This document shows, one piece after another, positions 43,888-50,707 of a stretch of DNA of 64,000 nt (position 1 is the first letter of the stretch; every line of letters begins with the position of its first letter). The notes under the pieces are model-generated. The model had not been told where the DNA came from. It was given only the letters and a program-made list of their open reading frames with translations, and ran no database searches. Source of the DNA: Mariprofundus aestuarium (GTDB taxonomy: Bacteria; Pseudomonadota; Zetaproteobacteria; Mariprofundales; Mariprofundaceae); the NCBI RefSeq assembly GCF_002795805.1, contig NZ_CP018799.1:427001-491000 (forward strand), in the 5' to 3' direction. The translations under genes were made by a program, and so were the position numbers.

Positions 43888-44949
43888 GTGTCAGGCTCTT
43901 CCACCGGCCAGATATTCCGGGTTACTACTGCAGGTGAATCACATGGGGCGGCACTGGTTGCCATTGTCGAGGGGTGCCCGGCAGGCATTGGCCTCTCCGA
44001 GGCCGATATCCAGCCCGATCTTGACCGTCGCAAGCCGGGGCAGTCCAAATACACAACCCAGCGTCGTGAAGACGATGAGGTAGAGATTCTCTCTGGCGTG
44101 TTTGAAGGCAAAACCACAGGTTGTCCGATTGCTCTGCTGATTCGTAATACTGACCAGCGCAGCAAGGATTACTCGGAGATCATGGATAAATTCCGTCCGG
44201 GTCACGCTGATTTCACCTATTTTGAAAAATATGGAAGGCGCGACTATCGCGGTGGCGGCCGTTCCTCCGCACGCGAGACCGCGGTACGCGTAGCAGCCGG
44301 TGCAGTTGCCAAGAAGCTGCTGGCTGAATCAGGCATTTCGGTTCTCGGCTGGGTTGATCAGATAGGCCCAGTGAAAGCGGATGCTGCAAAGTTTGATCGT
44401 GATGAGATCATCAACAACCCCTTTTTCTGCCCAGATGCTGAAGCTGCGGAGAAGATGGCTGCCTTTATGGATGCGCTGCGCAAGGAGGGCGACTCCATTG
44501 GCGCAGGTGTTACTGTTGAGGCGCATGGGATGATCCCAGGGCTTGGTGAGCCGGTATTCGACAGGCTTGACGCTGATATTGCCAAGGCGCTGATGAATAT
44601 CCCGGCCGTGAAAGCTGTCGAGATTGGTGATGGCTTAAGCTGTATCGAAGCGAAAGGCTCCGAATTCGGTGATGCGATTCGCATGAGTGGATTCCAGAGT
44701 AACCATGCCGGAGGCGTTCTCGGTGGTATCTCCAATGGTGATACGGTGCGGGCGCGCATGGCACTCAAGCCGACCTCATCGATCCTTAAATCACGTCCGA
44801 CGATCGACATTCATGGCAATGAAACAGATATTGTTACCAAGGGTCGTCATGACCCATGTGTGGGAATCCGTGCCGTACCTGTTGCCGAAGCGATGCTTGC
44901 GCTGGTGCTGGCTGATCATCTACTGCGTCATCGTGCCAGCAGGATCTGA
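43888..44949 (+). CDS. aroC: Chorismate synthase
   Basis: Makes chorismate from EPSP with reduced FMN. The 353 residues include [19 protein letters not shown] at the N-terminus, the FMN-binding regions [11 protein letters not shown] and [28 protein letters not shown], and ending region [22 protein letters not shown] at 43888, three bases after fabI. It is the second shikimate-pathway gene in the window after aroE. Confidence 0.97.
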
Positions 44950-44955
44950 TTCTTA

Positions 44956-46101
44956 TTAGGGTTTAACGGGCTCCAACCAGGCGCCAGAAAGCCCTGACCT
45001 GGCCTTCATCTCAGCCAGCGTTCTGTTTGCATCCACTCCGCCGACAGAGTCGCTGATGTAGAGGCGCTGCCAGATTGCATCATTTACTGTCACTTCTTTG
45101 ATGCTGGTTCTGATGTTCGCTGTTGAAAGTTGCTCTTGTGCCGCGATTGCATTCGCCTCTGTTTCGAATGATGCGAGATTGATGATAAACGCCTGATCGC
45201 CAGGAGTTCTGCTGGCAGTTTTAGTGCCGGACCTGCCTGCAGGCGCTGCTGCGGATTCATCTAACTCGGCTGCAGGTGAGGCAGGCGTATCGTCTTGCAT
45301 ATCGGGTGCTGGCTCCGGCTCTTTATCGAACTCATCTTCTTCAAAGCCGTTCTCCTCGCTCCCCCAGTTATCCTCTTCCCAGCCATCACCACTGCTTTTT
45401 TCAGGTTTGGGGGGGGTGCCATCATAGATCAGGTACTGCCTGTTTTGACGCCACGCTTCTCGCGTGAAAACGTAAGGGTCGAGTGCCAGCTCATCGCGCA
45501 TATCAGAGGCTTCCAGCAATTGCGCCCGCTGGTCCACATATTTCAGCACAGCCACCGGAATGGTGACCGCAGGTGCGAGGGTGAATGAGAGCCAGAAGAG
45601 TGGGTCGGTGGCAGTTGCGGTGATAAAATCGGGTGTGTTGCGCACCGAGTTTGGCCCCAGTAGCGGGTAAACAATATAGGCGCCCTGGCCGGAGCCCCAC
45701 ACTGCCAGCGTTTGACCGAAATCTTCGTCGTGTCGCTCAAGCCCCATGGATGAGGCGACATCCACGAGGCCGCCGGCACCGAGCGTGGTGTTAATCAGGA
45801 AGCGGAACAGGTCACTGAATCCCTGCTTGCCTTTGCCCTGCAGGAAATCGTTCAACACGGTGTTGAGGTAGGTGGCGTTGTCATAGAAGTTGGATACGGC
45901 TGTACGCATGGGCTTGGGAACGGCAGCCGTATAACCACGGGCCACCGGCTTGAGTGTTACCCGGTCAATGCCGTCATTCACCTTATCGGTTACCCGGTTG
46001 ACCGGTTCGATGGGGTCGTGGTTGTTTTCAGTGGTGGCACATGCGGAGAGCAGAACTGCCAGCAGCAGCGTAAGGATCAGGTTGAAGGGGCGCCGATTCA
46101 T
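44956..46101 (-). CDS. mlaA: MlaA/VacJ phospholipid-transport lipoprotein fused to a C-terminal SPOR domain
   Basis: Outer-membrane lipoprotein that removes surface phospholipids and passes them to the Mla pathway. The lipobox LLSACA places the lipid on about Cys21. The MlaA domain runs to about residue 240, with DPIEPVNRVTDKVNDGIDR and PLLGPNSVRNTPDF and typical TLGAGGLVDVASSMGL. A long acidic linker (about 245-300, rich in E and D) leads to a SPOR domain (about 305-381) with FIINLASFETEANAIAAQ and ending LSGAWLEPV. The usual MlaA is about 250 residues; this one has 381. It converges with aroC, six bases apart. Confidence 0.88.
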   Translation of the reverse strand: MNRRPFNLILTLLLAVLLSACATTENNHDPIEPVNRVTDKVNDGIDRVTLKPVARGYTAAVPKPMRTAVSNFYDNATYLNTVLNDFLQGKGKQGFSDLFRFLINTTLGAGGLVDVASSMGLERHDEDFGQTLAVWGSGQGAYIVYPLLGPNSVRNTPDFITATATDPLFWLSFTLAPAVTIPVAVLKYVDQRAQLLEASDMRDELALDPYVFTREAWRQNRQYLIYDGTPPKPEKSSGDGWEEDNWGSEENGFEEDEFDKEPEPAPDMQDDTPASPAAELDESAAAPAGRSGTKTASRTPGDQAFIINLASFETEANAIAAQEQLSTANIRTSIKEVTVNDAIWQRLYISDSVGGVDANRTLAEMKARSGLSGAWLEPVKP

Positions 46102-46175: not shown

Positions 46176-47219
46176 TCACGGGCAGGGATTCGGGTATTGA
46201 AGAAAAACTGATTCAATGTCGGCAATACATTCATCGGAAAGGGTCACCTCATGGCTTTCAATGTTCTCGGACAGCTGCTGCATGGTTGTCGCTCCTATGA
46301 TTGTAGCAGAAACAAACGGTTGTTGCCGAATAAATGCCAAAGCCATCTGCGCAGGTTTCAGGTGATGTTTTTCGGCTACCCCGACGTAAGCAGCTGTGGC
46401 CATCTTTCCAAACTCATTGGAGTAGCGGGTATAGTGACCGAACATGCTCAGACGCCCCTGCTGTGTGGGGTGATCGTTGTTCAGGTATTTTCCAGAGAGA
46501 ACACCGAAGGCGAGCGGTGAATAAGCAAGCAGCCCCGTCTTTTCCCGACAGGCTATCTCGGCAAGACCTATTTCGAAGGCGCGGTTGAGCAGGTTGTACG
46601 GGTTCTGGATCGATACGATGCGTGAAAGCCCCATGGATTCGGCACAGTGCAGGTACTGCATGGCGCCCCACGGCGTTTCATTGGAAATCCCGATGTGGCG
46701 CACCTTGCCTGCTTTCACAAGCCCTGAGAGCGCCTCCAGCGTTTCGGCAATCGGGGTGAACGACTCCTCTTCGTTATGGTTGTAGTTCAGCTTTCCAAAA
46801 TAGTTGGTGCTGCGCTCAGGCCAGTGGGTCTGGTAGAGATCAATATGATCGGTCTGCAGGCGGCGCAGCGAAGCCTCGCATGCTGCAACAATATTGTTGT
46901 GATCAAGTTTCGCTTCTCCACCCCTGATGTGCGGACACAAGGCTGTCGGCCCGCACACCTTGGAGGCGAGAACCACCTCATTGCGCCGGCCGGTTTTGTG
47001 AAGCCATTCACCGATGATTGATTCTGTAGCGCCGTAGGTTTCGGCCTTGGGTGGAATGGCATATAGCTCGGCAGTATCGAAAAAATTGATGCTGTAATCG
47101 CGGGCATAATCCATCTGGGCAAAGGCATCGCTTTTACTATTCTGTTCGCCCCATGTCATGGTGCCGAGGCAGATCTCACTGATCTGAATATCTGTCTGTC
47201 CGAGCCTGTTCAGCTTCAT
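46176..47219 (-). CDS. Aldo/keto reductase (Tas-like)
   Basis: NADP-dependent oxidoreductase of 347 residues. The N-terminal strand is [19 protein letters not shown], and the catalytic tetrad pieces are visible: Asp in NFFDTAELYA (with Tyr), Lys in VVLASKVCG and His in LYQTHWPER. The sequence is closest in style to E. coli Tas. Overlaps the end of the hybrid kinase by four bases and has its ribosome site GGAG inside that gene, so it belongs to that operon. Substrate unknown. Confidence 0.88.
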   Translation of the reverse strand: MKLNRLGQTDIQISEICLGTMTWGEQNSKSDAFAQMDYARDYSINFFDTAELYAIPPKAETYGATESIIGEWLHKTGRRNEVVLASKVCGPTALCPHIRGGEAKLDHNNIVAACEASLRRLQTDHIDLYQTHWPERSTNYFGKLNYNHNEEESFTPIAETLEALSGLVKAGKVRHIGISNETPWGAMQYLHCAESMGLSRIVSIQNPYNLLNRAFEIGLAEIACREKTGLLAYSPLAFGVLSGKYLNNDHPTQQGRLSMFGHYTRYSNEFGKMATAAYVGVAEKHHLKPAQMALAFIRQQPFVSATIIGATTMQQLSENIESHEVTLSDECIADIESVFLQYPNPCP

Positions 47220-50200
47220 GTCTTCATCTCCAGCATGTCGCCCAGTGTCTGTTCGAGGTGTTCAACGGAGTAGGGTTTATTGATTACTGCAATCCCCTGC
47301 AGGCCACTGTCACGCTCAATTTCTTGACGTTTATCGTAGCCGGTTGCAAAAACGATCGGAATTCCGGGGTTCAGTACGCGAACCGTCCTGGCCAGTTCAA
47401 CCCCGCCCATTTTCGGCATCACAACATCTGTAAGGATCAGGTCGATAGCGTTACTGTTATACAACTCCAGCGCCTGCTCTCCGTTTTCAGCCGTTAATAC
47501 CCGGTAGCCGATGTTTTCCAGTACTTCAGCGATAATGGCAAGGACCCCTGTCTCGTCATCAACGAACAGAATGGTTTCACCGTTTGCCGCTCTTGAGGCA
47601 GCCTGTGTCTCTTCTTTGTTTTCCAATTCCGTGGTGATAAGGGGCAGGTAAATGTGGAAGGTGGTGCCTTTGCCAACCTTGCTTCTCACATCGATGATGC
47701 CGTTATGGGATTGAACCGCTCCAAATACCATCGACAGCCCCAGACCAGTTCCTTTGCCGACCGATTTGGTGGTAAAGAAGGGTTCGAAGATGTTGTCCAG
47801 ATCCTCTTCGGGGATGCCGTACCCGTTATCCTTGATGGTGAGGTGGGCATAGGGAGCGTTTTTTGCCGATTCATGGCTGGATAGAAAACCGGGGTCGGGC
47901 TGGAATTTCTCCAGACGAATGCGGATAACGGGCTGCTTCACATCCTCGACGGCATCGCGTGCATTGTTCAAAAGGTTGAGCAGAACCTGTTGAAGCTGTG
48001 TGATGTCGGCTGATACCTTCATGTTGGCCTCGATTTCGAGGCTGAAGTCGATATCCTCTGGGACGGATACCCTGTGAAGTTTGAATGTCTCTTTAATAAA
48101 AGGGGTAAGGAGAATTGTTCGTTTCTCGACAACGTCTTTTTTGGCGAAGGTGAGAAGCTGCTTGATCATATCGGCAGCCCTGTTGCTGAGGCCCTGGATG
48201 TTTTCGAGTTTCGTGGTGATCTTTGGCTGGCCTTCCGCAAGTCGCTTGGCCAGATAGATGTTGCCTGTGATGCCGGCCAGCATGTTGTTGAAGTCATGGG
48301 CGATGCCGCCAACCAGCGTACCGATGGACTCCATTTTTTGCGCCTGATAAAACTGTTCCTCCAGTTTCTGAATCTTGGAGATGTCCTCATGTACCCCGAC
48401 AAAGTGGGTGATGGTTCCATCGTCACTGCGAATAGGTGAAATCGTAAGCATGGCGGGATAGGTGGAGCCATCCTTTCTCTTTTCGATAATTTTCCCCTGC
48501 CATGTATTACCCAGCCGAATGACTTCTCGCATCTCAATCGCCAGTTTCTGGTACTCGTCTGATCGGAACAGTTGCGGTGTTTTGCCCATCGCCTCGTCAC
48601 TGCTGAAGCCGGTTATTCGCGTAAATGCTGGGTTCACATATTCGATCTCACCATTGCTGTTGGTGATGGTTACCACTTCACTGGCCTGTTCAACGGCGCT
48701 GGAGAGTTTCTGCATTTTCTCGATATAGAGGCTGCGTTCAATGGCGATAGCTGAAAGCTTAGCGGCATTGGTGATCTCGGCGATTTCCTCGTTATCGGGG
48801 AGTGCCGGATGGTCGTAATACATGGCAAAGGTGCCGAGAACATGACCGTCGGAATCCAGAATCGGTTCGGACCAGCAGGCTTGCAGCCCCAGTAGAAGCG
48901 CAAGCTCTTTGTAGGGGGACCAGCGCTCATCGGTGGAGATATCCTCGACGATCACGCGCTTCCTGCTATAGGCAGCAGTACCACACGAGCCGACCATTGG
49001 ACCAATCTCAATGCCTTCGAGCGCACGGTTATATTCATCGGGAAGATTGGGGGCGGCCCCCTTATAAAGTCTTCCTTCCTTTAACAGCAGAATGGATGCC
49101 TTCATCTCCGGATGGCGCTTCTCGTGGACCCGTACGATCTCTTCAAGGATATGGGGCAGGTTCCTATCACTGGCGATCATCTCCAGAATCATGGAGGTGG
49201 ACTTCACCTGGGATTCGGTTTGTTTCTGCTCCGAAATATCAAAAATATTACCTTCTAGACAGACCACCTTTTCGGCCGCATCAAAAACAGCCTGTCCTCT
49301 CTCATGCACCCAGCGGACCTGACCATTACGACAGATGAGGCGATACTCAAGGGTATATGGCTCCTTGTGCTTAACAGCTTTTATCATATCCTTGATGATC
49401 TGCTTTGTGTCATCCGGATGAATAATGCTGGCAAAAGAACGAATCTGGTTCGCGTAAAAGTCGGATGCGGGATAACCGCTGACCGTCTCCACTGCATCGC
49501 TGATGTAATCCATAGTCCGATTTTCATCGTAAGCACAGCGGTAGGTAATACCGGGGACGTTGTCGACAAGCTTGTGGAACCGCGCCTCACTTGTTTCAAG
49601 CTCTGCGGTACGGTTTTTAACCATACGACGCAGCAACAGGGTTTGCAGGGCGAAGATGGCTAGCAGTGAGAGTAGCCCGAATACCAGCAGTTGCCACAGG
49701 TATTGGCCAAGTATCTCTTCCAGCTCCAGAGCTGGTTCGTAAACCAGCCCGTTGACCTCGAAGTCGGCGGAAATCAGGTCGATATCCTGATAGGTCTGCG
49801 CAATCTTTTGCCAGCGGGCCAGACTCATGTATCCGGGGTTCACTACATTTTTAAGAATCATCTCGCCTGTTTTTACGGCTTCGAAATAGAGCTGACTTTT
49901 GGACAGGTGCTGGCTGTTATATTGTTTCTGGATCAGTTCGACGGTCTCATCCAGGTTGTCCAAGGCATATTGCCACCCCTTCATGCTCGCTCTGATCATG
50001 GCGTTGGCCCGCTCTGGATGGTTAGCCACTTCATCATCGGATGTGATCAGAAGGTCTCCGTAGAAGTCGATACCGTAGTCATTGGGATGGAGGATGTGAT
50101 AGGGGATGCCGAGATCTTCCAACTGGTGTGGCTGGTCGGTGGTGTAGATGCTGAAGGCATCGGTTTTCCTGTTGATCAGATCATCAAGGTTGAAGCTGGT

Positions 50201-50707
50201 ATTCTGGCGTATGAAGTCACCCTGATTCAGGCCAGATTTTTTCATTGCGGCGAGAATGACAGCATCCATATGGCCGGACTGCATCATCGCCTTTCTGCCT
50301 TTCAGGTCGCTAAATTTGCGGATGCCTGAATCAGCTCGCACCGCCAGCGCCAGAGGTGAGTGCTGGAAGATCGCTGCCAGTGTTTTTACCGGCTTGCCGT
50401 CGGCGCGCGCCAGAATTACACCGGTATCGGTGATGCCGTAACGCCCCTCCTCCATCAGGATATATTCGATAGGGTTTTTGCTGGGGCCACCCTCAATCAG
50501 TTTAACATTCAGCCCTTCATCCCTGTAGTACCCTTTTTCGACAGCCATGTAAAAGCCGGCAAACTGGAATGCATGCTTCCACTTCAGTTGCAGGGAGATG
50601 GCATCGTCAGCACCTGCCAGAACCGGATTGAACAGCAGAAGCAGCGCAAGCAGCGCCGTGCTACATGGGGCGGTTATCTTAAGCAGTGATTGCTTTACCA
50701 GATCCAT
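47216..50707 (-). CDS. Hybrid histidine kinase with periplasmic NMT1/THI5-like binding domain
   Basis: A 1163-residue sensor. In order: signal peptide or first membrane helix (about 10-30); an NMT1/THI5/SsuA-type substrate-binding domain (about 35-280; [48 protein letters not shown]); a membrane helix (about 340-360); PAS (about 375-500); GAF (about 510-670); PAS (about 680-790); HisKA with His804; HATPase ([21 protein letters not shown]); and receiver with Asp1094 in [11 protein letters not shown]. It overlaps the Tsx-like gene upstream by 13 bases and the aldo/keto reductase downstream by four. The THI5-like domain predicts a small ligand, possibly a pyrimidine. Confidence 0.9.

Follow-up and report, generated by a model that had tools for sequence, protein, structure and literature searches.

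Why should a protein of the MlaA family, whose members remove misplaced phospholipid from the outer leaflet of the outer membrane, end in a SPOR domain? The question is raised by a gene of Mariprofundus aestuarium that lies within the 64,000-nucleotide stretch of DNA analysed here (the window). A preliminary description had proposed that an MlaA domain, a Glu/Asp-rich stretch and a SPOR domain are joined in one gene, and had suggested a domain search as a check. The open reading frame occupies exactly positions 44956-46101 on the minus strand, from its ATG start through the stop codon, and encodes 381 amino acids in which both families are matched above their curated Pfam cut-offs, in agreement with that proposal. 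The MlaA match (PF04333), which coincides with a domain in the AlphaFold2 model, covers aa 28-223 (45433-46020, minus strand) with an E value of 2.4e-66 and 223.6 bits against a cut-off of 25. The C-terminal match to the SPOR profile (PF05036) covers aa 303-372 (44986-45195, minus strand) and exceeds the curated cut-off of 21 by a narrow margin when the full-length protein is scanned (E 0.00022, 21.9 bits); the score rises to 23.7 bits when the C-terminal 164 aa are scanned alone. The two matches are separated by 79 aa, and the SPOR assignment draws on the predicted fold and on individual residues as well as on the profile.

Parts of the fused protein

From an LSAC lipobox read in the sequence, the window protein is a predicted lipoprotein. 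Signal peptide and lipobox span aa 1-21 (46039-46101, minus strand), and the residue expected to be lipidated, Cys21, is invariant among 34 aligned MlaA sequences (alignment A1). The gene is the sole mlaA of a 2.54-Mb single-contig genome. Its product has in common with E. coli MlaA (VacJ, of the OmpC/F-Mla system) the MlaA domain, the lipobox and an acidic C-terminal tail, and MlaC and mlaF/E/D-like genes are likewise encoded in the genome. It differs from the E. coli protein in carrying about 80 extra C-terminal residues, which are those that form the putative SPOR domain. The one MlaC gene adjoins mlaF/E/D-like genes far from mlaA, and this separation of mlaA from the mlaF/E/D/C-like genes is also the arrangement in E. 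coli. At one locus (L214; G000:C1:271500-282500), mlaF-E-D-C-like genes are followed in a single run by a gene for a 1043-aa protein, which we take to be AsmA/YhdP-like, and then by a second MCE, permease and ATPase-like set; apart from MlaD and MlaC, which were search hits, these names are presumptive.

The acidic stretch between the two domains had been described as a linker of about 55 residues belonging to the fusion. The estimate of its length was close, as aa 236-287 form a stretch of 52 aa with 37% D/E, but its attribution to the fusion has to be revised. An acidic-aromatic motif following the MlaA domain occurs in 24/24 fused loci and in 42/48 unfused loci of the order, as counted in the same tails whose inspection had served to define it, and by eye many MlaA proteins elsewhere end in short acidic tails. 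Because the same tail is present in unfused MlaA loci, the stretch is not peculiar to the fusion and corresponds for the most part to the acidic tail usual in MlaA. In the window protein this acidic-aromatic tail covers aa 236-262 (45316-45396, minus strand; 44% D/E). By analogy with E. coli MlaA, it is likely to be an MlaC docking tail: residues 227-251 of the E. coli protein are those that bind MlaC, which is no longer recruited when this segment is truncated or its charges are reversed, according to PMC10245069 and PMC10719372. The order of parts would then be lipid channel, MlaC docking tail, spacer and SPOR domain. Two MlaC charges, K84 and R90, are named in the accessible text of PMC10719372; in the MlaC of this genome the Lys is kept (position 83 by our count) and the Arg is replaced by Gln, and for this reason docking of MlaC on the acidic tail is rated as likely rather than more firmly.

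A short TRI-containing motif (such as KTRIS or KTRIH) is visible by eye in the middle of the linker at L114, L115, L117-L120 and L124-L129. It loosely resembles the extreme C terminus, YKPHIRLN, of unfused proteins from genus g3 (L173, L180, L181 and L183), as if the old MlaA C terminus had been retained inside the fusion.

For the full-length protein, AlphaFold2 (34 sequences, five of them with SPOR; mean pLDDT 82, pTM 0.56) predicts an MlaA domain of mostly high confidence and a confident C-terminal domain, joined by a disordered stretch at aa 239-299 (45205-45387, minus strand; pLDDT <50) that overlaps the acidic tail. Prediction of the C-terminal 86 aa alone (five sequences; mean pLDDT 85) yields the order E-H-E-E-H-E, with strands at residues 9-17, 37-44, 47-54 and 80-83 and helices at 20-32 and 60-72 of that segment. 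As modelled, the domain has the antiparallel sheet, the two helices on one side and the beta-alpha-beta-beta-alpha-beta order of a SPOR fold. When this model was compared with known structures using Foldseek, the rows included the SPOR domains of DedD, RlpA, CwlC and DamX, of which the best scored 5.1e-3; no row reached 0.001 or below, and unrelated rows were interspersed among those for SPOR. VIA-align gave Z values of 8.5 for the RlpA SPOR domain, 7.7 for CwlC, 7.5 for DamX and 7.2 for DedD, with unrelated folds beginning at 5.6. FtsN (1uta), at 5.1, falls among the unrelated folds, and the top row, at Z 9.2, is 6ozd, a Burkholderia exported protein without a SPOR label. A five-row SPOR profile (A2) searched against the sequences of solved structures returned no significant row; FtsN 1uta, with an E value of 0.52, ranked below two unrelated chains.

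Distribution and history of the fusion

The preliminary description had also proposed looking for the same fusion in other genomes. It is present in 19 of the 23 genomes of the genus sample, 17 of them with a whole open reading frame and two with a 3′ part at the end of a contig, and outside the genus in 4/4 genomes of one genus (g6) and 1/4 of another (g7). The same architecture is thus found in 24 of the 78 genomes of the order sample, 70 of which have an MlaA match, and Pfam matches to both SPOR and MlaA at E values up to 1 were obtained for all 24 fused members. The MlaA-SPOR fusion is real and more than a chance match; it is kept in most of the genus and occurs in two more genera.

The exceptions within the genus take several forms. 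In G209, a stop codon follows the acidic tail, and a 34-aa remnant of the second half of a SPOR domain lies directly downstream (hmmsearch 2.5e-6; locus L123). The MlaA of G215 ends in the acidic tail without SPOR, G156 has only another MlaA type, also without SPOR, and no MlaA was found in G136. The remaining MlaA tails read in the order lack SPOR (the gene of G168 is cut by a contig end, and G275:C175 was left out). A scan for SPOR remnants 3′ of unfused genes was positive only at L123 among the 36 loci that it covered (E 2.5e-6; next 5.3), with 18 others outside the scan. A second MlaA type without SPOR, found in three genomes of the genus, G156 (L131), G120 (L135) and G260 (L136), falls on the tree with sequences from other genera and may represent either a paralogue or contamination.

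That standard MlaA proteins have no SPOR domain, as had been asserted at the outset, agrees with a wider survey. Among 80 named loci, the best 80 of 584 confirmed relatives, four are fused, all of them named Mariprofundus (L032, L033, L039 and L058), and the 76 others have no SPOR. Outside the order, 57 MlaA genes (30 + 27) were read from a phylum sample comprising 304 genomes with MlaA, and they too lack it. The SPOR profile was run on tails of at least 25 aa, shorter tails being unable to hold the domain. Among 114 such tails, taken from 199 collected with some genes represented twice, it gave 17 matches at 1.7e-28 or below, all in fused genes of the family, and the next value was 0.98. Over 398 phylum genomes, a profile of 21 SPOR domains gave its highest scores, 89-120 bits, to all 24 fused genes together with two stand-alone proteins, followed by bitopic-looking SPOR proteins of g7 at 77 bits; the profiles were built from fused genes, and the rows that they contain score high by construction.

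Fused and unfused mlaA genes share a common locus, flanked by an aldo/keto-reductase-like gene on one side and by a convergent aroC-like gene on the other, each of which adjoins mlaA in many loci of both kinds. In the window, the presumed counterparts of these neighbours lie at 46176-47219 (minus strand; upstream and co-directional) and at 43888-44949 (plus strand; convergent), respectively. At this locus the genes of L164 (g14) and of L202 and L205 (g7) are unfused, and those of L191 (g7) and L192 (g6) are fused. The synteny is not universal, since L117, a member of the genus, has neither neighbour within the stretch examined. Farther upstream in the window, a gene for a hybrid sensor kinase of 1163 aa (47216-50707, minus strand) ends in a stop codon overlapping the aldo/keto-reductase-like gene at its start; the periplasmic start of this kinase presumably resembles an NMT1/THI5-type binding protein.

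At least four changes between the fused and the unfused state occur on the MlaA tree, and the two MlaA copies of G254, which lack SPOR, nest within the genus there. A single gain represented as one fused clade on this tree was rejected by an AU test (p 8.5e-5), but in this test any loss within the clade weighs against a single gain as well. For the SPOR tree, a topology with all MlaA-SPORs in one clade is rejected with the stand-alone proteins L138 and L139 (p 0.0056), because those two nest inside, and is not rejected without them (p 0.447). With L138 and L139 set aside, the SPOR sequences are compatible with one origin. That the g7 SPOR domain (L191) nests with the SPOR domains of the genus is no more than suggestive (p 0.069). 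The SPOR domain of the window protein is 54% identical to that of L191, from another genus, versus 36% to that of its close relative L113 (G009), whereas the MlaA part is 69% identical to L191 and 91% to L113. These identities are at odds with one another and point to an exchange of the 3′ end of the fusion or to very uneven rates. Taken from the trees and identities, the history could be either one gain with losses and exchange or several gains. L138 (G044) and L139 (G203) are themselves small proteins in which a signal-peptide-like start precedes a SPOR domain that nests among the MlaA-SPORs of the same lineage, and their SPOR domain probably originated as a copy of the one in mlaA.

The putative glycan-binding face and its constraint

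In known SPOR structures, a glutamine contacts denuded glycan (RlpA Q270, FtsN Q251 and DamX Q351), and S254, W283 and R285 of FtsN are important, an S254A mutant being still septal, according to the accessible text of PMC6895207. In a sequence alignment, the places of the three FtsN residues are occupied by Ser, Trp and Arg, respectively, in 24/24 fused proteins each; the glycan-face places of the window protein are N308, S311, F312, W344 and R346. The glycan-contacting glutamine is absent from all 24 MlaA-SPORs, which have Asn (12), Phe (5), Tyr (5) or Ile (2) instead, Asn308 in the window protein. The same glutamine is kept in the FtsN-like SPOR domains of 21/21 genomes read in the genus. 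At the place of RlpA F274, Phe is found in 5/24 MlaA-SPORs, including that of the window, and His in 17/24; at that of RlpA R311, Arg is found in 13/24 and Tyr in the window protein. The glutamine is also missing from three other divergent SPOR proteins of the genome (Asn, Asn and Val), so that its absence looks like a trait of a subgroup of SPOR domains in Zetaproteobacteria, and the MlaA copy may be derived from this subgroup. Bitopic-looking SPOR proteins (L292, L293 and L294, and L145-L147 in the window's own genome), most of them without the glutamine, occur several per genome in the family, and pairs of SPOR matches about 1-2 kb apart are present in at least eight genomes of the genus.

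By analogy with other SPOR proteins, it is plausible that the SPOR domain of the fusion targets the septum; the basis for this step is what is known of the family, and the missing glutamine weakens it. Alternatively, the domain might be a general anchor to peptidoglycan or protein, binding some other wall feature or partner and holding MlaA near the wall all around the cell. Such a role would fit the replacement of the glutamine in every fused protein and in the three divergent SPOR proteins of the genome, as well as the Asn seen by eye at this place in the bitopic g7 proteins L292 and L293. The retained matches to FtsN S254, W283 and R285, however, speak for a kept glycan face, and we regard a non-septal anchor as possible but doubtful.

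The SPOR domain could also be a loosely constrained passenger from domain shuffling, swapped or lost without much effect while MlaA works as usual. Its fast divergence would be expected in that case: in 17/17 genomes compared with the window, the SPOR of MlaA shows lower conservation than its FtsN-like counterpart, although the FtsN-like figures cover the locally aligned part and are thereby favoured. The decayed copy in G209, the lack of SPOR in G215 and in both G254 copies, and the repeated changes of state on the MlaA tree point in the same direction. The dN/dS ratios, estimated on 12 chosen pairs, argue otherwise. In eight fairly close pairs, three of which share rows and two of which have dS >1, the SPOR values are 0.29, 0.04, 0.09, 0.12, 0.05, 0.09, 0.16 and 0.10, alongside 0.03-0.14 for the MlaA part and 0.16-0.36 for the linker (six pairs measurable). 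Other SPOR values are 0.29 (L112-L191) and 0.17 (L192-L198), with no value for L125-L126 and an outlier of 0.61 for L112-L113. Furthermore, six places are invariant across 21 SPOR domains, including a Trp near the C terminus that falls in the last strand of the model, and the fusion persists in most genomes of the genus; a mere passenger therefore seems unlikely to us. An assembly or annotation artefact has a negligible probability, as the window's genome is a single contig and the same architecture recurs in single-contig G009 and in the four named Mariprofundus loci. Misassembly was ruled out by the occurrence of the same fusion in other assemblies, those of relatives.

A proposed wall tether for MlaA

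The reading that we prefer, with about even confidence in it as a whole, is that of an ordinary MlaA with an MlaC docking tail, which a divergent SPOR domain would hold to the peptidoglycan, most likely at the septum. The likeliest function of the domain is thus to tether to the wall an MlaA that is otherwise complete, and the site is probably the septum. In such a protein, the MlaA domain would take misplaced phospholipid out of the outer leaflet and the acidic tail, as in E. coli, would recruit the shuttle MlaC. The disordered spacer would carry the SPOR-fold domain out to the peptidoglycan, thereby tethering the MlaA complex. The tether site would most likely be rich in amidase-denuded glycan, as the septum is, and retrograde lipid clean-up would then concentrate at the constricting outer membrane. 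The genome also encodes TolB and one Amidase_3, the latter of which could make denuded glycan.

More tentatively, and leaning towards doubt, we suggest that Mla clean-up in these iron-oxidisers may be wired to the dividing wall by placing lipid channel, MlaC tail and septal reader in one polypeptide. The reader would be an exchangeable cassette: at one locus it would have been acquired, lost and transferred from genus to genus, and a copy of it would have come to lie on another secreted protein. The covalent MlaA-SPOR fusion may be evolution's way of coupling the upkeep of outer-membrane lipid asymmetry spatially to division. Natural controls are offered by the unfused orthologues at the same locus, the decayed copy, and the strongly diverged or swapped SPOR parts.

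No paper on an MlaA-SPOR or VacJ-SPOR protein was found in the literature searched, which leaves most subscription journals outside. Four papers contain both terms: in the accessible portions of PMC12977461, PMC8228696 and PMC13251401 the term SPOR occurs solely within reference lists, and in that of PMC13411936 VacJ and SPOR proteins are separate P. aeruginosa genes. With FtsN, DamX and DedD, the window protein appears to share the SPOR fold, and on the glycan face it keeps Ser, Trp and Arg as in FtsN. Those three are bitopic inner-membrane proteins; the SPOR domain of the window protein, in contrast, has no such glutamine and would be carried by a lipid-transfer lipoprotein of the outer membrane. 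The closest layout is that of the outer-membrane protein RlpA, in which a lipid anchor, an effector domain and a C-terminal SPOR domain follow one another. In P. aeruginosa RlpA the effector domain is a lytic transglycosylase, as stated in the accessible text of PMC6895207 and PMC9712689. In the window protein, the place of the effector is instead taken by the MlaA domain. The same genome encodes a separate protein, L143, which we take to be RlpA-like.
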